NCBI RefSeq assembly: GCF_029626235.1 | Contig: NZ_JARUBO010000005.1 | Span: 5,552,001-5,616,000, forward strand | DNA from: Micromonospora sp. WMMD1120 | GTDB taxonomy: Bacteria; Actinomycetota; Actinomycetes; Mycobacteriales; Micromonosporaceae | Length of the DNA stretch: 64,000 nt | Direction: 5' to 3' | Shown here: in pieces, positions 7,005-18,531 of the stretch | Position numbering within the stretch: the stretch's first letter is position 1 | Layout of the letters: each line of letters opens with the position of its first letter | Made by a program: the position numbers and the translations under genes | The notes under the pieces: generated by a model | What the model was told of the DNA's origin: nothing | Seen by the model: the letters and a program-made list of their open reading frames with translations, nothing else | Database searches by the model: none

Positions 7005-8759
7005 TCAGGTGACGACGATCCGGGCGTCGTCGGGCAGTCGTCGGGTCGCGCCCCGCCGGTCCAGCAGCTCCAGCAGCGGCACCGCCACCCGACGGGTGGT
7101 GTCCAGCGCCTGCCGGGCCGCGGAGAGGGTGAACGGCTGCGGCAGCCCGGCCAGCACCCGGACCGCGTCGTCGAGCGCGTCGGGCAGCAGCACCACGTTG
7201 TCGGCCAGCCGCAGCAGCGCGCCGGCGCGCACCGCCGCGCCGATCTCCCGGGGACCCAGACCGATCTCCACGAGCCGGTCCGCCTCCGGGGCGCGGAACG
7301 GCCGGTCACCGTACTCGTCGCGGACGCGGCGCACGGCCCGTGCCACCGGTTCGGGCAGCGCGTCGGCGTCCGCCGCGGCGACGCGCCCGGCGTGGATCCG
7401 CAGCGGCGGCCGAACCAGCGCCTCGACCAGCGCCCGGTCGGGCAGGGCGAGGCGCTGACGCAGCGCGTCCACCGGCATGCCCGGCGCCAACGGGTTCTCC
7501 CGCGCGTGCCGGGCGACCTCCTCGGTGACCCTGTCGCGCAGCCGCCGCCAGTGCTCGGGGTCGGCCAGCCAGTCCCCGGCCACCGGCTCGGCGTGCGCCG
7601 GCACCCCCATTCGGCGCAGCGCGCCGGCCCGCACCAGCCCTCGGCGGCGCAACTCACCCGCCAGGTCAGGGTGACCGTCCAGCTCGGCGAGGACCTCGGC
7701 GCGGGCGGCGGCCGCACCCCGGCGGACCAGCGGTGGCGGCGCCACGTCCAGCACCCGCACCCCACCGCTGACGTGGTGCCGGCCCGGGTCCCGCAGCAAC
7801 GCCCGGTCACCCACCAACAACGGCAGCGCACGGGCCAGCCGCAGTCGTACCGTGTCCGGGCCGATCGGTCGGACCCGCGCCGGCACCGCGGCGGACCCGA
7901 CGTGCAGGGTGAGGGTGGCCGGCAGGTCGGCGGCCGGGTCGCCGACCAGTCGAACGTCGAGCAGGTCGGTGTGGTGGAAGCGGCCCGGGGTGAGCAGCGC
8001 GTCGCCCCGGCCCAACCGCTCGCGGGGCGTACCCCGGAGGTTGACCGCCACCCGGGCCACGGCCGTGACCTCCGGTCGGGCCTCGCCCAGCGACTGCAGG
8101 CCCCGGACCCGGACCCGGTCGTCGGCGCCGGCCACCTCCAACTCGTCGCCCACCCGCAGGCGACCGGCGCCCAGGGTGCCGGTGACCACGGTGCCGCTGC
8201 CGCGCACGGTGAAGCTGCGGTCGATCCACAGCCGCACCGGCTCGTCGGGCGTCGGCGCGGGCAGCCGCGCGGCGAGCCGGTCCAGGGCGTCCCGCAGCTC
8301 GTCGAGGCCGGCGCCGGTCCGGCCGCTGACCGCCACCGCGGGCACCGCGCCGAGACTGGTCGTGGCGATCTCCGCGCGGGCGTGGGCCAGCGCCGGCCCC
8401 GGGTCGGCCAGGTCCGCGCGGGTCACCACCAGCAGGCCGTACGCGACACCGAGCGCGTCGAGCGCGGCCAGGTGCTCGGCGGACTGCGGCATCCACCCCT
8501 CGTCGGCGGCCACCACGACCAGCGCCGCCGGCACCGGGCCGACGCCGGCGAGCATGTTCGGCACGAACCGCTCGTGCCCGGGCACGTCGACGAACGCCAC
8601 GGTGCCGCCGGACGGCAACCTCGTCCAGGCGAAGCCCAGGTCGATGGTCATGCCCCGGCGGCGCTCCTCGGCCCACCGGTCGGGTTCCATCCCGGTCAAC
8701 GCCCGGATGAGCGTCGACTTGCCGTGGTCGACGTGCCCGGCGGTGGCGACGACGAACAC
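7005..8759 (-). CDS. selB: Selenocysteine-specific translation elongation factor SelB
   Basis: A 584-residue GTPase that delivers Sec-tRNA to the ribosome at UGA codons marked by a SECIS element. The EF-Tu-like N-terminus has G1 GHVDHGKST (residues 8-16), G3 DVPGHE and a G4-like TRAD. Translational beta-barrel domains follow (RSFTVRGSGTVVTGT), and the C-terminal third is the winged-helix array that binds the SECIS hairpin. The GTG at 8759 lies 2 bp after the selA stop. A longer frame reading into selA adds only Arg-rich nonsense. SelB should act on the formate dehydrogenase mRNA a few kb upstream. Confidence 0.96.
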   Translation of the reverse strand: MFVVATAGHVDHGKSTLIRALTGMEPDRWAEERRRGMTIDLGFAWTRLPSGGTVAFVDVPGHERFVPNMLAGVGPVPAALVVVAADEGWMPQSAEHLAALDALGVAYGLLVVTRADLADPGPALAHARAEIATTSLGAVPAVAVSGRTGAGLDELRDALDRLAARLPAPTPDEPVRLWIDRSFTVRGSGTVVTGTLGAGRLRVGDELEVAGADDRVRVRGLQSLGEARPEVTAVARVAVNLRGTPRERLGRGDALLTPGRFHHTDLLDVRLVGDPAADLPATLTLHVGSAAVPARVRPIGPDTVRLRLARALPLLVGDRALLRDPGRHHVSGGVRVLDVAPPPLVRRGAAAARAEVLAELDGHPDLAGELRRRGLVRAGALRRMGVPAHAEPVAGDWLADPEHWRRLRDRVTEEVARHARENPLAPGMPVDALRQRLALPDRALVEALVRPPLRIHAGRVAAADADALPEPVARAVRRVRDEYGDRPFRAPEADRLVEIGLGPREIGAAVRAGALLRLADNVVLLPDALDDAVRVLAGLPQPFTLSAARQALDTTRRVAVPLLELLDRRGATRRLPDDARIVVT

Positions 8760-8761
8760 CG

Positions 8762-10066
8762 TCAGTCGTCCCCGGGTACCCGCAGCACCGCCGCCCGGAC
8801 GGCCTCGTCGGCGGTGGCGGGCACACAGCGCAGGTCGAGCAGGAGTCGACCGCGCACCACCCGACCGAGCACCGGCTGGTCCCCGGTGCGCAGCGGGCCC
8901 GCGTACCGTTCGGGCAGGCTCAACGCCCACGAGTCCAGCTCCACCCCCGGGCCGCCCCCGCCGCCGACGACAGCGACGGACGGCACCACCTCGGCCTTGC
9001 GGCCGTCCGCGCCGAGCCGGTCGCGCAGCCGTTCCACCCGTCGGCGCAGGTCGCCCGGGTCGGCGTGTAGCGCCGAGCGGGTGGGGGTGTCCGGTCGGTG
9101 CAGGGTGGCGGCGAGCGCGGCCAGGGTGAGCTTGTCCACCCGCAGCGCCCGGGCCAGTGGGTGCCGGCGCAGCCGGTCGACCAGTTCGGCGTTGCCGAGC
9201 AGCAACCCCGCCTGCGGCCCGCCGAGCAGTTTGTCGCCGCTGGCGGTGACGAGCGCGGCGCCCGCCCGCAGGGTGCTCGCCGCGTCCGGCTCGTCGGGCA
9301 GCAGCGGGTCGGCGTCGAGCAGGCCGGAGCCGATGTCGGCGACCACCGGCACCCCGAGGGTGGCCAGGTCCCGGACGCCGACGGCGGCGGTGAAGCCGGT
9401 GATCTGGAAGTTCGACGGGTGCACCTTGAGCACGAAACCGGTCCGCGGGCCGAGCGCGGCGGCGTAGTCGGCGAGCGTGGTGCGGTTGGTGGTGCCCACC
9501 TCGCGCAGCCGCGCGCCGGTGCTCTCCAGCAGGTCGGGCAGGCGGAAGCCGTCCCCGATCTCGACCAGCTCGCCACGGCTGACCACGATCTCCCGGCCCG
9601 CGGCCAGCGCGGTGGCGGCCAGCACCAGCGCGGCGGCGCCGTTGTTGACCACGTGCACCGCGCCCGCGTCGGGCACGGCGGCGGCCAGCGCGTCCAACGC
9701 GTCGCGACCCCGGCGGGCCCGCCGGCCGGTGACCAGGTCCAGTTCGACGTCGGTGTGCCCGGCGGCGGCCACCACCGCGTCCACGGCGGCGGCGGAGAGC
9801 GGGGCCCGGCCCAGGTTGGTGTGCAGCACGACGCCGGTGGCGTTGAGCACCACCCGGGAGCCGGTCGCGGGCAGCGCGGCGACGGCGGCGTCGCGTACCT
9901 CGTCGGGGTCGATCTCGCCGCGCCGGGCCCGCTCCTGCGCGTGGGACACGACCGCCTTGACCCGCTCCCGGCCGAGGGTCACGCTGGCCGCGGCCAGCAG
10001 TGGGTCGGCGAGCAGCGTGTCGGTGCGGGGCACCCGCCGTCGCGGATCCACCGTGGCGTCGCCCAT
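8762..10066 (-). CDS. selA: L-seryl-tRNA(Sec) selenium transferase SelA
   Basis: A 434-residue PLP enzyme that converts Ser-tRNA(Sec) to Sec-tRNA(Sec) using selenophosphate. The family segment RVVLNATGVVLHTNLGRAPLS is recognisable, and the PLP-binding Lys lies in SGDKLLGGPQAG. An N-terminal domain (about 1-70) of the type that binds tRNA-Sec is present. ATG at 10066 is preceded by AGGAG at eight bases. The gene begins only 23 bp beyond the 3' end of the tRNA-Sec gene, so the tRNA is probably processed from the same transcript. Confidence 0.96.
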   Translation of the reverse strand: MGDATVDPRRRVPRTDTLLADPLLAAASVTLGRERVKAVVSHAQERARRGEIDPDEVRDAAVAALPATGSRVVLNATGVVLHTNLGRAPLSAAAVDAVVAAAGHTDVELDLVTGRRARRGRDALDALAAAVPDAGAVHVVNNGAAALVLAATALAAGREIVVSRGELVEIGDGFRLPDLLESTGARLREVGTTNRTTLADYAAALGPRTGFVLKVHPSNFQITGFTAAVGVRDLATLGVPVVADIGSGLLDADPLLPDEPDAASTLRAGAALVTASGDKLLGGPQAGLLLGNAELVDRLRRHPLARALRVDKLTLAALAATLHRPDTPTRSALHADPGDLRRRVERLRDRLGADGRKAEVVPSVAVVGGGGGPGVELDSWALSLPERYAGPLRTGDQPVLGRVVRGRLLLDLRCVPATADEAVRAAVLRVPGDD

Positions 10067-10089: not shown

Positions 10090-10185
10090 TGGCGGAGACG
10101 GACGGGAATCGAACCCGCCTGGCCCGGGTCCCGGACCACACCGGTTTTGAAGACCGGGAGGGGCACCAGCCGCCTGAACGCCTCC
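10090..10185 (-). tRNA. selC: tRNA-Sec (anticodon UCA)
   Basis: Read on the minus strand, the 96-nt gene starts GGAGGCG and ends with an encoded GCCA. The anticodon loop is TTCAAAA flanked by CCGGT/ACCGG, placing TCA as anticodon, which reads UGA. The T-arm is GGGTTCGATTCCC, and between the anticodon and T stems lies a long GC-rich variable arm (GGTCCGGGACCCGGGCC) typical of tRNA-Sec. Length, CCA end and overall plan match bacterial selC. It sits 13 bp after the fdh membrane-subunit gene and 23 bp before selA. Confidence 0.95.
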
Positions 10186-10198
10186 ACCGGACATTCGA

Positions 10199-11338
10199 TC
10201 ACACCGCGGGCGGGGCCGCCTGATCAGATGGAAGTTCCGCGCCGGTCCGCCGCGCATCGAGCCGCGCACGTTGCGGCACCACCGTGTAGCGCGGGTCCCG
10301 GGCGGAGGCGACGCCGCCGTAGAAGATGCCGAACCGGGTCAGCACCGAAGCGGCCAGCAGTGAGCTGCCGGCCAGCGCCCCGACCACCCGGCTGCGCCGG
10401 CCCAGCAGGGCGCCCGCCACCCCGCCGGCGGTGAGCAGCCGCCCGGCGCGCAGCAGCCGGCCCGGCCGGCCCTGCCGGTAGGGCTCGCTGAGCAGACCCA
10501 GGCGGGTCTCCACCCGATGCGCGCCGTACAGCTCCAGGGCCGCGCCGGCCACCGCCATCCGGCGGGCCGGTCCGGCCTGGGCCGGCGGCGCGGCGAGCAG
10601 ACCCACGCCGGCGCCGCTGGCCAGCGCGCTGCCCGCGAAGATCACCGGCAGCTCGGGGTACGCCTCGTGCCAGGACGGCACCGCCGTGTCGGCGAGCAAC
10701 ACCCCGGTGTACGTCGCCAGCGCCGGCGCGGTGCCCGCGGCGAGCAGCCCCGCGGCGTGCCCGATCGGCGGCAGGACCCGACCGGCCAGCCCGAGCACCC
10801 CGTGGCGGGGCAGCGCCCCGGCCGCCTCGGCGATCGCGGCGACGCCGGCCGCCGGCCCGTACGCGGTGAGAATCCAGGTGCCCACCGACATCGGCGAGGT
10901 CGGCTTGGCCACCCGCAGCATGTGGTGGAACCGCGCCGGCCGGCCCAGGTCCCTGATCAGGAAGACGGTGCTGGCGCTGACGGCGGCCAGCGCGGTGACC
11001 CGACCGGCGCGCCGCAACGCGGGCCGGCCGGTCAGTTGCCCACCGGCGGCGAGCAGCGACGAGCCGGCGGCCAGCCCACCGGTGAACAGGTACGCGGCGA
11101 TGTCCCACTTCCACACCGGCGGCTTGAGGATGGGCCGGCCGTAGTACGAGGTGAACTCGGCCTCCGGCACCCGCAGCTCCTCGCCGCCACCGCGCCCCCC
11201 GCGTCGACGGCCCGGGTGGCGGCCGTCCGGCGGGGCGGCCTGCCGCGGCGGGGCGGCCTGCGGGTCGGCGGTGTCGCTGGTCAGCCGGTCGCGGAAGCGG
11301 CGGAACCGGTCGCCCACCTCGGGACGGTACGCGCTCAC
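10199..11338 (-). CDS. NrfD-type membrane subunit of formate dehydrogenase
   Basis: A 379-residue protein with a charged, disordered N-terminus of about 75 residues, then TSYYGRPILKPPVWKWDIAAYLF, the typical entry to NrfD/PsrC proteins, and about eight to nine membrane helices. NrfD subunits anchor molybdoenzyme complexes and exchange electrons with quinone. The GTG at 11338 overlaps the fdhB stop (GTGA). It is the third subunit gene after the catalytic and iron-sulfur subunits. Using an NrfD-type rather than a FdnI-type cytochrome b subunit means haem ligands are not expected. Confidence 0.88.
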   Translation of the reverse strand: MSAYRPEVGDRFRRFRDRLTSDTADPQAAPPRQAAPPDGRHPGRRRGGRGGGEELRVPEAEFTSYYGRPILKPPVWKWDIAAYLFTGGLAAGSSLLAAGGQLTGRPALRRAGRVTALAAVSASTVFLIRDLGRPARFHHMLRVAKPTSPMSVGTWILTAYGPAAGVAAIAEAAGALPRHGVLGLAGRVLPPIGHAAGLLAAGTAPALATYTGVLLADTAVPSWHEAYPELPVIFAGSALASGAGVGLLAAPPAQAGPARRMAVAGAALELYGAHRVETRLGLLSEPYRQGRPGRLLRAGRLLTAGGVAGALLGRRSRVVGALAGSSLLAASVLTRFGIFYGGVASARDPRYTVVPQRARLDARRTGAELPSDQAAPPAV

Positions 11339-12276
11339 GAGGACCCCCCGACGAACACCGCGACGGTCGCCGCCGCCATGGCGAGCGCGGCGAGGCCGGC
11401 GCGTCTCCACATCTTCGGCAGGTCCCGGGTGGTGACGATCGGGTCGGGGGGCAGCCCGTACACCTCGGGCTCGTCGAGGAGCAGGAAGAACGCCCCGTCA
11501 CCGCCGACGCCGTCGTCCGGGTCCTCCCCGTACAACCGCGCCTCGGCAACCCCCCGCTGGTGGAGTGTCGCCACCCGCGCCGCGGCCCGCTCCCGCAGCT
11601 CGTCGAGGGGACCGTACTGGATCGACTCGGTCGGGCACGCCTGCGCGCACGCGGGCGTCATCCCCGCACCGAGGCGGTCGTAGCACAGCGTGCACTTCCA
11701 CGCCCGACCATCACCCTTACGCTGGTCGATCACCCCGTACGGACACGCCGAGATGCAGTACCCACACCCGTTACAGATGTCCTCCTGCACCACCACCGTG
11801 CCGAACTCGGTCCGGAACAACGACCCCGTCGGACACACGTCCAGACACGCCGCATGGGTGCAGTGCTTACAGACGTCCGACATCATCAACCACCGGAAGT
11901 CGGTGCGCTGCTCGGCGCCGGTGTCCCGCCCCGGCGGTCGCGCGCCGGGCATCCCGAGGAACTCCGGGCCCGCGCCGGCGGCGGGAGCGGCGGCGACCGG
12001 CGCGCCGAGCACGTCGGCGGTGCGGGGCTGCTCGACGAACGCGACGTGCCGCCAGGAGTTCGCCGTCAACGCCCCGGTGTTGTCGTACGACATGCCCAGC
12101 AGGTCCAGGCCGCTCTCCGGGACGCCGTTCCACTCCTTGCAGGCGACCTCGCACGCCTTGCAGCCGATGCAGACGCTGGTGTCGGTGAAGAACCCCATCC
12201 GCGGCGGCGCCGACGACCACCCGGCGTCCGGCGCCGGGTCCAGCGGACCGTACAGACTGTTCGGGTCAGGAAGCAC
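11335..12276 (-). CDS. fdhB: Formate dehydrogenase iron-sulfur subunit
   Basis: A 313-residue electron-transfer subunit with four ferredoxin-type Cys clusters: CIGCKACEVAC, CKHCTHAACLDVC, CNGCGYCISAC and CTLCYDRLGAG...CAQAC. It should carry four 4Fe-4S centres between the catalytic subunit and the membrane subunit. A hydrophobic segment near the C-terminus (AGLAALAMAAATVAVFVGG) is the membrane anchor seen in FdnH/FdoH-type proteins. The GTG at 12276 overlaps the end of fdhA by 11 bp and has GGGGAGGAG just upstream, inside fdhA. Confidence 0.93.
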   Translation of the reverse strand: MLPDPNSLYGPLDPAPDAGWSSAPPRMGFFTDTSVCIGCKACEVACKEWNGVPESGLDLLGMSYDNTGALTANSWRHVAFVEQPRTADVLGAPVAAAPAAGAGPEFLGMPGARPPGRDTGAEQRTDFRWLMMSDVCKHCTHAACLDVCPTGSLFRTEFGTVVVQEDICNGCGYCISACPYGVIDQRKGDGRAWKCTLCYDRLGAGMTPACAQACPTESIQYGPLDELRERAAARVATLHQRGVAEARLYGEDPDDGVGGDGAFFLLLDEPEVYGLPPDPIVTTRDLPKMWRRAGLAALAMAAATVAVFVGGSS

Positions 12277-15200
12277 CCGACTCCTCCCCCGTGCCGTCGG
12301 TGACCACCGGCGCGTGCTGACCCGGGGTGATCCCGGCCCGCCGCTGGTAGTCGGCGACCAGTTCCACCAGCGCCGGCCCGGTGGGACGACGTCCGGGCCG
12401 GACGTCGCAGGTGCCGACCTTGCTCTCCTGGATCAGCACGTTCGGGTCGAGGCTGATGCCGAACAGGTCGTTTGCCGAGTCGCCGGTGACCAGGCCCTCG
12501 AACCCGAAGTGGTACGGCAACCACACCTGGTGGATGACCCGCCCGTCCACCCGCAACGGGGTCAACCGGTCGGTCACCAACACCTTCGCCTCGATCACCG
12601 CGCGACCACTGACCAGGTGCGCCCACCCCAGGTGCGCCAACCCGGCCTCGGCGGCCAGGTCCGGTGACACCTCCACGAACATCTCCGGCTGCAACTCGGC
12701 CAACGGCGACACCGTGCGGCTCATCCCACCGGCGGTGTGGTGCTCGGTCAGCCGGCTGACCGTGAACACGTACGGGAACACCTGACTGTGCTCCTGCGGC
12801 GGGCTCGGGTTCACCGAGTTCACCGGGTGCGCGTACATCTTGCGGGTCGGGTTGGCCTGTTGCCGGTACAGCGGGTTGCGCACCGGCGACTCGACCGGCT
12901 CGTAGTGCGTCGGCAGCGGCCCGTCCAGCACGCCGCTCGGCGCGTACAGCCAGCCCTTGCCGTCGCCCTGCATGACGAACGGGTCGTCACCCGCGATGCC
13001 CTCGGTCCCCGACGCGCCGGGTGGCGGCCGGTACGACGGTGGCTTGGTCTTCTCGAAGTCCGGCACGTCGTAACCGGTCCACTCGCCCTTGTCGGCGTCC
13101 CACCACACGTAGCGCTTGCGCTCACTCCACGGGTTGCCGTCCGGGTCGGCCGACGCCCTGTTGTAGAGGATGCGCCGGTTCGCCGGCCACGCCCACCCCC
13201 ACTCGGCGGCCACCCAGTCCTGCTCGTGCCGGGACTTGCGGCGGGCGGCCTGGTTCACGCCGTCGGCGTACACGCCCGTGTAGATCCAGCAGCCGATCGC
13301 TGTGGAGCCGTCCGGGCGCGCCTCGGCGAAGCTGGACAACGGCGCGCCGGTCGTCACGTCGTACCCGTTGATCTCGCGCAGCACCGCCTCGGCGCTCGGC
13401 TCCGCGTGCGGGCCGTGCGTGGGGTAGTCCCAGGTCAGGTCGAGCAGCGCCCGGTCGCGCGGCAGCCTGGAGGCGGCGAGCTTCTCCCGGATCCTCCGAC
13501 CGAGGTGGTAGAAGAACCACAGCTCGGAGCGGGCGTCGCCGGGCGGCTCGACGGCCTTCTCCCGCCACTGCAACAACCGCTGCGTCTGGGTGAACGTGCC
13601 CTCCTTCTCCACGTGCGACGCCGCCGGCAGGAAGAACACCTCGGTCCGGCACTCCTCCGGCACGATCTCCCCGGTGGCCACCTCCGGGCCGTTCTGCCAG
13701 AACGTGGCACTCTCGATCATGAAGAGGTCCCGGACCACCAACCAGTCGAGATTGGCCATGCCCAAGCGCTGCGCCCGACCGTGCGCCGAACCGACCGCCG
13801 GGTTCTGACCGAGCAGGAAGTACCCCTTGACCTTCCCGTCGATCATGTTGAGAACCTGCTGGTACGTGCCGTGGTCACCGGTCATCCGGGGCAGATAGCC
13901 GTAACAGAAGTCGTTCTCCGGGGTCGCCGCGTCCCCCCAGTACGCCTTGAGCAGGCTCGCGGCGAACGACCGCGCGTTGCCCCAGAAGCCCTTCTGCCCC
14001 GGGTGCCGGATGCTGTCCACCCACTCGTCGAAGGTGGGGTGCTCCGCGTGGTGCGGCATCGGCAGGTAGCCCGGCAGCAGGTTGAACAACGTCGGGATGT
14101 CCGTCGAGCCCTGAATGCTCGCGTGCCCGCGCAGCGCCATCACCCCGCCACCCGGGCGGCCCATGTTGCCCAACAACAGCTGGATGATCGCGCCGGTGCG
14201 GATGTACTGCACCCCCACGCTGTGCTGCGTCCACCCCACCGAATAGATCAGCATGCCGGTCCGCTCGCGACCGGAGTTCTCCGTCCACGCCCGCGCCAAC
14301 TCCAGGAACTGCTCCTGCGAGATGCCGCACACCCGCTCCACCATCTCCGGGGTGTAGCGGGCGAAGTGCCGCCTGAGGATCTGGAACACGCAGCGCGGGT
14401 GCTGCAACGTCTCGTCCCGCTCGGTCTGCCCACCGACCGGCGCGCCGTGCGACTCGTGCGTCAACCCCGAGGCGCTGTCCCGCTCCTGCGCGGTGTGCCC
14501 GCTGCCCGACGAGCGCTCGTGCCCCTCGTACTGCCAGCTGTCCTGCACGTACGTGCCGGTCGCCGGGTCGAAGCCGGAGAAGAGGCCGTCACCGTCCTCG
14601 GTGTCGCCGAACTCCTCGCTGACGATCGTCGCCGCGTTCGTGTACGACAGCACGTACTCCCGGAAGTCCAACTCGTTGTCCAGGATGTACCGCACCACCC
14701 CGCCGAGCAGGGCGATGTCGGTGCCCGCCCGGATCGGCAGGTACGAGTCGGCCAGGGCGCTGGTCCGGGTGAACCTCGGGTCGACGTGGAACACCTTCGC
14801 GCCCCGGCGCTTGGCCTCCATCACCCACTGGAAACCCACCGGGTGCGCCTCGGCCATGTTCGAACCCTGGATGACGATCACGTCAGCGTTGGCGATGTCC
14901 TGCTGGAAGTCCGTCGCACCGCCACGACCGAAGCTGGCCCCCAGACCGGGGACGGTGGCGGAGTGTCAAATACGGGCCTGGTTCTCGATCTGGAGCGCCC
15001 CCATCGCGGTGAACAACTTCTTGATGAGGTAGTTCTCCTCGTTGTCCAGCGTCGCCCCACCCAGGCTGGAGAAACCCAGCGTGCGGTTGAGCGGCCGGCC
15101 CTGCGTGTCGACGTCCTCCCAGGTCTGCTCGCGGGCGGCGAGCATCCGGTCGGCGATCATGTCGAGCGCGGTGTCGAGCTCCAGATCCTCCCACTGCGTC

Positions 15201-15535
15201 GAGTACGGGCGGCGGTAGCGCACCCTCGTCTGCCGCAGCGGACTGGTCACCAGACTCTTGCTCGCCGACCCCTTGGGACAGAGCCGACCCCGCGAGATCG
15301 GGCTGTCCGGGTCACCCTCGATCTGGCAGACCTGCCCGTCCTTGACGAACACCCGCTGCCCGCAGCCGACCGCGCAGTACGGGCAAACCGACCGGGCCAC
15401 GCTGTCGGCGGTCTCGGTGCGCGCGGTCAGGCCCGCCGAACGGGCGGACTGCGCAGCCAGGCCCCGGCCGAGCGGGTCCGTGCCGGTGAGCTGCCGGTAG
15501 ACCGGCCAACCCTCGATGAACGTCCGCAAGCCCAT
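12266..15535 (-). CDS. fdhA: Formate dehydrogenase catalytic subunit, selenocysteine-containing
   Basis: A 1,089-residue molybdopterin enzyme if the in-frame TGA at 14966-14968 is read as selenocysteine (Sec190). It oxidises formate to CO2. The 4Fe-4S motif CPYCAVGC...GRLCPKG lies at about residues 50-90. The active-site context ARI-Sec-HSATVPGL matches the ARV-Sec-HGPSVAGL context of E. coli FdhF. A SECIS hairpin follows the TGA, and selC, selA and selB are adjacent. The frame is open on both sides of the TGA and both halves are homologous to one enzyme, so it is not a broken gene. ATG at 15535 has GGGAGGGGG at eight bases. No twin-arginine signal is visible near the start, so the subunit may face the cytoplasm. 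Confidence 0.95.
14938..14952 (-). promoter_or_regulatory. Bacterial SECIS hairpin after the fdhA UGA
   Basis: On the transcript, CCCC and GGGG (plus one U-G pair) form a stem closed by the loop GGUCU. Counting from the U of UGA, the loop occupies nucleotides 22-26, the same distance as in E. coli fdhF, where the GGUCU loop is the SelB contact. The hairpin lies inside the coding sequence, as in other bacterial selenoproteins. Confidence 0.88.
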
Positions 15536-17533: not shown

Positions 17534-17875
17534 ATGCAGGCCGTCTCCTCCACCGCGACCGGCGTGGCGTTTCTGGCCCGCCCGGGTCGCCCCGCCGTGG
17601 TGGCGCGGACGCTCACCGAGCTGGCCGGCCCTACCCGGGGCGTGGTGGAGTTGCCGGTGCGGTTGATGTGGAACGCCGAGCGCACCTTCGACCTCGCCGA
17701 CCCGGACCAACTGCTCTGGATGTACGAGAACGTCCTGCGCGAGACCACCCGGGCCGAGGACCTGCGGGCCCTGATCAACGGGCGGACGCTGCGGCGGGTG
17801 TGGCGACTGCTGAACCTGCCCCGGGGCGTACGCCAGGCGTGGGAGAGCCGGCACCGCGGCCTGCGCGCCGCGTGA
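17534..17875 (+). CDS. Hypothetical partner protein of an AbiEii-type nucleotidyltransferase (113 aa)
   Basis: A basic, helical 113-residue protein, with central LPVRLMWNAERTFDLADPDQ and an Arg-rich C-terminal half. Its position directly before, and 4-bp overlap with, a nucleotidyltransferase gene recalls antitoxin-toxin pairs of the AbiE type. I do not see a clear winged-helix AbiEi domain, so an antitoxin role is inference. ATG at 17534 has only a distant GAGGTGG, so translation may be leaderless or weak. Confidence 0.65.
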   Translation: MQAVSSTATGVAFLARPGRPAVVARTLTELAGPTRGVVELPVRLMWNAERTFDLADPDQLLWMYENVLRETTRAEDLRALINGRTLRRVWRLLNLPRGVRQAWESRHRGLRAA

Positions 17876-18531
17876 CCGAGCCGCACCTGCACGACTTCTA
17901 CCGGGAGGTGGCCAGGGTGGCGCTGTCCGCCGCCGGGCCGTACCGGTTCGTCCTGGGCGGTGGGGTCGCCTGGGCGGCGCACGGGCTGGTCGCCCGGCCG
18001 ACGGAGGACGTCGACCTCTTCGCCGATGTGGAGGGGGCGGCAGCGGCGGCGTCCGCCGGGGTGCGGGTGGCGTTGCAGCGCGCGGGTTTCGTGGTCAGCG
18101 ACGCCGACCCGGACAGTGAGCTGGCCGAGCTGTTCGACGGGTACGGGCAGGACATGAAGGACTTCGTGGTCAGTCGGGACGGGCGGCAGATCCGGCTCAG
18201 CCTGGCCCGGCTGGACCGCCGGCAGAGCCCCGTGGTGATGGACCTCGGGCCGGTGATGGACGTGCGGGACCTGGTCGCCAACAAGATCGCGGCGTTGGTC
18301 AACCGGCGGGAGGTGCGGGACTTCATCGACGTCGCGGCGGCCCTCGACCACTACGGCGTGACCGAGCTGTTGGTGCTGGCCCGCCAGGTCGACCCCGCGC
18401 TGGACCCGGACGACGTCCGCGCCGCCGGCCGCTACCTGGACCGCCTCTCCGACCAGCGCTTCGGCCGGTACGGCCTGGACGCGGCCGAGGTCGCCGAGAT
18501 CCGACGACGCTTCGCCGGCTGGCCGCGTTGA
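17872..18531 (+). CDS. AbiEii/AbiGii-type nucleotidyltransferase domain protein
   Basis: A 219-residue protein with the minimal nucleotidyltransferase fold: FVLGGGVAWAAHGL followed by TEDVDLF, giving the GG...DxD metal-binding pattern. Later NKIAALVNRREVRDFIDVAAAL matches the Lys/Asp region of the AbiEii family. Family members are toxins that use nucleotides to modify RNA such as tRNA, in phage defence or stress. The GTG at 17872 overlaps the stop of the 113-residue gene (GTGA), so the pair is an operon. Confidence 0.82.
   Translation: MTEPHLHDFYREVARVALSAAGPYRFVLGGGVAWAAHGLVARPTEDVDLFADVEGAAAAASAGVRVALQRAGFVVSDADPDSELAELFDGYGQDMKDFVVSRDGRQIRLSLARLDRRQSPVVMDLGPVMDVRDLVANKIAALVNRREVRDFIDVAAALDHYGVTELLVLARQVDPALDPDDVRAAGRYLDRLSDQRFGRYGLDAAEVAEIRRRFAGWPR

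Follow-up and report, generated by a model that had tools for sequence, protein, structure and literature searches.

A probable selenocysteine-containing formate dehydrogenase, with its decoding genes, in Micromonospora sp. WMMD1120

The window analysed here, a stretch of 64,000 nucleotides from Micromonospora sp. WMMD1120 (contig NZ_JARUBO010000005.1, positions 5,552,001 to 5,616,000), carries on its minus strand a formate dehydrogenase (FDH) alpha-subunit gene interrupted by an in-frame TGA. The genes for a beta subunit, an NrfD-type subunit, tRNA-Sec, selA and selB all lie 3' of it on the same strand (Table 1). The alpha frame starts with the ATG at 15535 and ends with the TGA at 12266-12268, and the TGA at codon 190 is the sole stop between them. 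The original prediction, made from the sequence alone, had described a frame continuing on both sides of this codon, and this is confirmed. With a probability of about 0.96, this UGA is translated as selenocysteine (Sec).

Table 1. Features of the formate dehydrogenase locus, in window coordinates.
Feature	Position	Strand	Basis and remarks
Formate dehydrogenase alpha subunit, predicted Sec-containing, 1089 residues	12266..15535	-	Frame, family scores, alignments to structures and FdnG
ATT codon (Ile189) adjoining the Sec codon	14969..14971	-	Ends in A or T in every Sec homologue read
TGA codon, predicted to be read as Sec, residue 190	14966..14968	-	Alignment to Sec of relatives; codon kept in loci read
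Predicted selenocysteine insertion sequence (SECIS) core hairpin, loop GGUCU at 14943-14947	14937..14953	-	Position, conservation, stem pairing
Iron-sulphur beta subunit, one C-terminal hydrophobic helix (293-311)	11335..12276	-	Fer4 domains
NrfD-type membrane subunit, start codon uncertain	10199..11410	-	PF03916, 73.4 bits
tRNA-Sec, anticodon UCA, 3' GCCA encoded	10090..10185	-	tRNA family search
selA, L-seryl-tRNA(Sec) selenium transferase	8762..10066	-	TIGR00474, 404.8 bits (cut-off 267.9)
selB, Sec-specific elongation factor, start approximate	7005..8762	-	TIGR00475, 261.7 bits (cut-off 242.25); SelB-wing_3

By sequence, the joined product is an enzyme of the FDH-N (FdnG) type. In a profile search it scores 1960.4 bits against NCBIfam NF041513 (formate_DH_Act, cut-off 1400), with residues 6-1066 covering positions 2-1067 of the 1067-position model, and 944.6 bits against TIGR01553 (FDH-N alpha, cut-off 814.2), while it falls below the cut-off of the FdhF-like TIGR01591 (342.1 versus 666.25). 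The domains found are those of the Fe4S4 (PF04879), molybdopterin (PF00384) and dinucleotide-binding (PF01568) families. Residue 190, in the context ENQARI-U-HSATVPGLG, aligns opposite U196 of E. coli FdnG, Sec against Sec, which bears out the earlier recognition of a Sec formate dehydrogenase active site. In the best solved relatives, PDB 1h0h and 1kqf, the residue opposite is a special one printed as X, which we take to be Sec. The genome also encodes a second alpha paralogue (L100, G000:C5:6016001-6019243), which is 85% identical, has TGA at the same codon and stands next to beta and NrfD genes of its own; a scan of the five neighbouring open reading frames (ORFs) gave no domain of SelA or SelB, and no tRNA-Sec lies there.

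Codon 190 was read in relatives from a genus sample (61 genomes, 58 with the gene and 55 with tRNA-Sec) and a class sample (394 genomes). Across 164 actinobacterial loci it is TGA in 141, TAG in one, TGC in 21 and TGT in one. The original prediction had held that Cys or a real stop at this residue in close relatives would count against Sec; both were looked for and neither was found, every genus locus read that spans the site having TGA, as do 11/11 further genus paralogues (L245-L255), read apart from the main count. Repeated conversion of Sec to Cys was considered and rejected, the FastTree tree of the 164 rows needing one change for the 22 Cys genes. Dropped before the counts were L116 and L127 (same genes as L168 and L204), the short pieces without the site L117, L134 and L140, and the site-deleted L101 and L102; L256 and L030 are one gene. 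At the site, ten matches were left unread (G001, G041, second copies in G028 and G054, two pieces in G040, G048, two pieces in G139, and G134), six of which cover residue 190, with one TGA counted by the search inside each, and four of which stop short. In some relatives (e.g. L103, L104, L166 and L168) there is a second TGA, which comes no earlier than residue 1073 and was taken as the normal end.

Several loci in these samples are unusual in themselves. In the draft genome G024, the in-frame deletions of L101 and L102 start immediately behind Arg188, take out both the Sec codon and the hairpin, and differ in their ends; this genome keeps a tRNA-Sec over the cut-off, and the deletions are either a real loss or an assembly fault. 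Three loci, possibly damaged or misread, were kept as they are: L105 (TAG at 182), L164 (TAG at 618) and L167 (a Cys gene with TGA at 862). In L106, from the single-contig genus genome G043, tRNA-Sec is followed by ORFs that resemble selD, selA and selB by eye, and there is no match to this FDH. The class genome G333 has two tRNA-Sec genes over the family cut-off (76.0 and 66.8 bits).

The occurrence of tRNA-Sec follows the codon. In the class sample it was found in 83 of the 87 genomes that have a TGA gene (the site was read in 86 of these, and G139 was included by the search's stop count only), in 2/20 Cys-only genomes and in 22/285 without a match, the difference between the first two groups giving a Fisher p of 1e-14 with relatedness ignored. 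The sole TAG gene belongs to a genome of the same order as the window (G448), whose tRNA-Sec has the anticodon CUA, and this match of codon and anticodon ties codon 190 to tRNA-Sec.

Downstream of the codon, the predicted hairpin is kept in the TGA and TAG genes and broken in the Cys genes. Its GGUCU loop starts 18 nt 3' of the TGA, exactly as far as in E. coli fdhF, so the spacing given in the original prediction stands, and the stem here is GUCCCC/GGGGGC. The loop is at the exact place in all 141 TGA loci counted (GGUCU 124, AGUCU 11, AGUUU 6), and an unbroken stem of 6-7 pairs is formed by 99/105 distinct TGA-gene sequences; as a control, of 148,735 windows in the same phase from other parts of these genes, 0.47% attain 6 pairs. 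Counted from the loop, the Cys genes have an unbroken stem of 0 pairs (12 of the 22 genes) or 2 pairs (the other 10). Stem pair 17-29 is CG in 59 of the 105 distinct sequences, TA in 29, TG in 9, GT in 5, GC in 1 and GG in 2, and thus appears to be maintained by compensatory changes, since these occur on both sides. Third bases are almost frozen over codons 189-203 in 55 genus loci, with GGT at codon 197 in 55/55.

Several observations weigh against Sec insertion at this codon. Four TGA genomes of the class sample yielded no tRNA-Sec (G082, G118, G280 and G428, rated 93, 84, 100 and 63% complete), among them G280, a draft rated fully complete; five TGA genomes of the genus sample had no tRNA-Sec match either, all drafts of 530-990 contigs; and two Cys-only genomes, G264 and G373, do have tRNA-Sec. 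The stem breaks early in 6/105 distinct sequences (four with 4 pairs, two with 3). The fold after the TGA, proposed earlier as a check, lent no support: the 48-nt segment is not unusually stable (z 0.52), 139/200 shuffles folding at least as well, so that folding energy is no evidence for the hairpin and conservation serves as evidence instead. The crude nonsynonymous/synonymous ratio is 0.76 for residues 191-218, not below the 0.48 before the TGA (elsewhere 0.48-0.57 for residues 1-189, 219-330 and 371-1060, and 1.63 for 331-370). As a selection test after the TGA this ratio was dropped, because synonymous change is also suppressed there.

Upstream of the codon, the mRNA signal for Sec in Actinomycetota may include one more base: an A or U would be required immediately 5' of the Sec UGA, a proposal to which we give slightly better than even odds. 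Codon 189 in the 142 genus and class Sec genes (141 TGA, 1 TAG) is ATT in 111, ATA in 28 and GTT in 3; the 22 Cys genes all have GTC or GTG there. The 142 genes have a mean GC content at third codon positions of 0.935; A/T-ending codons make up 202/5,401 (3.7%) of their other Ile codons, and ATC accounts for 90-100% at twelve other conserved Ile positions. The 11 further genus paralogues all have A or T directly before the TGA. A phylum sample, in which 127/396 genomes matched, gave the same picture: among the best 30 loci, which were fetched, 27 have TGA, preceded in all by ATA, GTT or TTA (one of them, L287, is the same gene as the class locus L240), and the three Cys loci have ATC, TTG and TTG. 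In the UGSC family one Sec gene turned up, the only one with TGA among the 22 matches listed for its model, and there GAT precedes the TGA. A model search for a UGSC-kind Sec gene in the WMMD1120 genome gave no match, in a run that did match 15/296 class genomes (an earlier run was silent in its controls too).

Instead of being a translation signal, the A or U could be a by-product, either of RNA structure or of common ancestry, an account that is possible if rather doubtful. In its favour, the predicted fold (-3 to +59) gains stability in 41 of 114 distinct sequences when C is placed at that base; against it, the fold stays unchanged in 70 and loses stability in 3. Ancestry alone does not account for the pattern, because on the tree codon 189 must have switched between ATT, ATA and GTT at least 24 times, never to a G/C-ending codon. 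The UGSC gene, from another family, also has T before its TGA. There is no universal rule, which favours the by-product account: both E. coli fdhF and fdnG have GTC before the Sec codon, as do 78/80 fdnG loci, nearly all enterobacterial by title, and the A/U preference is therefore a trait of this phylum at most.

If the A or U is a signal, weak wobble pairing in the P site of the ribosome would perhaps disfavour termination or help delivery by SelB. It may then be an undescribed 5' context signal for Sec insertion in Actinomycetota: among the papers listed by a literature search, with most subscription journals beyond its scope, no title or abstract opening dealt with a 5' base requirement for bacterial Sec, and the available part of PMC4513850 treats competition by release factor 2 in E. 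coli, not the base 5' of the Sec codon. Were this base to matter, the picture of a codon and a downstream hairpin would be incomplete for Actinomycetota, and the base could aid selenoprotein prediction, as well as engineering in GC-rich hosts.

As for the codon itself, the 22 relatives with Cys at this site could suggest that the TGA is decoded as Cys, or as Trp, by a suppressor or near-cognate tRNA. This is very improbable: the window yielded one tRNA gene, that for tRNA-Sec with anticodon UCA, the genome of the TAG gene has a tRNA-Sec with the matching CUA, the SelB hairpin is intact in TGA and TAG genes but broken in Cys genes, and the alpha gene's own terminal stop is TGA. A TGA that truly terminates translation or stems from faulty sequencing, leaving a pseudogene or two genes, can hardly be maintained. 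Gene callers do end the frame there, an 871-aa ORF with a GTG start follows, and the nonsynonymous/synonymous ratio just after it is not low. On the other side, TGA recurs at the same codon in the 141 loci and 11 genus paralogues, the third bases of codons 189-203 are nearly frozen, and amino-acid-changing codons amount to 8.1% (124/1,540) at residues 191-218, the stretch from the TGA up to the following start codon, versus 9.5% (778/8,194) at residues 41-189.

The interpretation as a Sec formate dehydrogenase is further supported by the machinery, the genome holding a full set of tRNA-Sec, SelA, SelB and SelD, besides TGA in the genus relatives. The window's tRNA-Sec is the only one above the family cut-off genome-wide, and selD (376.9 bits) and the FDH sulphurtransferase gene fdhD (146.9 bits, cut-off 140.9) lie elsewhere in the genome. 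Read-through of the UGA we infer from the frame, the position of the Sec codon, the conserved hairpin, the machinery and the TAG/CUA match in the relative. The same gene cluster would supply tRNA-Sec, SelA and SelB, with SelD coming from elsewhere in the genome, and SelB would bind the GGUCU hairpin and bring Sec-tRNA(Sec) to the UGA. When the window's tRNA-Sec is paired by hand, the eighth acceptor pair is a U.C mismatch; alternatively, the T stem may have an extra pair (7+6 in place of 8+5). All 30 genus loci printed (L043-L072) share U at base 8.

In the enzyme, Sec would bind the metal (Mo or W) of a bis-molybdopterin guanine dinucleotide cofactor in the active site, and electrons from formate would pass through the clusters of the beta subunit to the NrfD subunit and on to the quinone pool, as the families of these subunits suggest. 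The active site probably faces the cytoplasm, because the alpha subunit has no twin-arginine translocation (Tat) signal: its N-terminus shows no twin-arginine motif, and the subunit contains no hydrophobic segment. A crude twin-arginine pattern matched 25/164 homologue N-termini, and these matches were rejected as Tat signals; of the ten printed, eight lie before or at the likely start and two (L097 and L166) inside, and by eye none is followed by a clear hydrophobic stretch. The topology of the NrfD subunit, counted by hydropathy, was set aside as too coarse a basis for orientation. The physiological role is probably the disposal of formate from aerobic metabolism. Elsewhere in the window, a plus-strand ORF (17668-18531) contains an AbiEii nucleotidyltransferase domain of the type IV toxin-antitoxin kind (PF08843, 49.4 bits).

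The expectation that gene callers split such genes holds for the protein collection searched, in which 72 of the best 120 of 7,996 hits are cut pieces, short proteins (800-909 aa) without the Sec site, and the remaining 48 are full-length and all have Cys at the site; the six short-protein starts inspected are all 3' of the TGA. An up-to-date pipeline would perhaps leave the gene whole, since the dedicated NCBI model NF041513 exists. With close relatives of this selenoprotein stored as cut pieces and two paralogues in the genome, the genus may be under-annotated for formate metabolism and for the use of selenium; a literature search on Micromonospora with selenocysteine gave, by title, nothing on such a gene.

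Compared with E. coli FDH-N (FdnGHI, PDB 1kqf), the alpha subunit is identical in 398/1045 aligned columns (38%), with Sec against Sec, and has about 26 additional residues near 342-367. The FDH-N beta subunit has one C-terminal hydrophobic helix, as does the beta subunit encoded here, which is FDH-beta-like and yet scores under the equivalog cut-off of TIGR01582 (180 versus 334.7 bits). In FDH-N the alpha subunit bears a Tat signal and the active site is periplasmic; E. coli FdnG starts with MDVSRRQFFK, whereas the alpha subunit here carries no Tat signal, and the third gene encodes an NrfD protein (PF03916) instead of the cytochrome b FdnI. These two features distinguish the complex from FDH-N. 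According to the available part of PMC5029168, no bacterial selenoproteins are more widespread than FDH alpha and SelD. Formate dehydrogenases with UAG-encoded Sec and tRNA-Sec(CUA) are described in Geodermatophilaceae (PMC5330540, citing Mukai et al. 2016, in the part available); they are enzymes of the same kind, and G448 likewise combines TAG with tRNA-Sec(CUA), while the gene in the window uses UGA and tRNA-Sec(UCA). Streptomyces incarnatus NRRL8089 has a Sec FDH-O with a selABCD cluster, as the available part of PMC4498112 reports, and there too an in-frame UGA is directly followed by a SECIS and sel genes lie near the alpha gene; in contrast to that cluster, which includes selD, the selD of WMMD1120 lies elsewhere in the genome, and a second Sec paralogue is present. 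The near full-length match to the actinobacterial FDH model NF041513, whose documentation was not consulted, revealed no difference, and judged by its genes this is a complete, ordinary Sec formate dehydrogenase system of the known kind represented by NF041513 and S. incarnatus.

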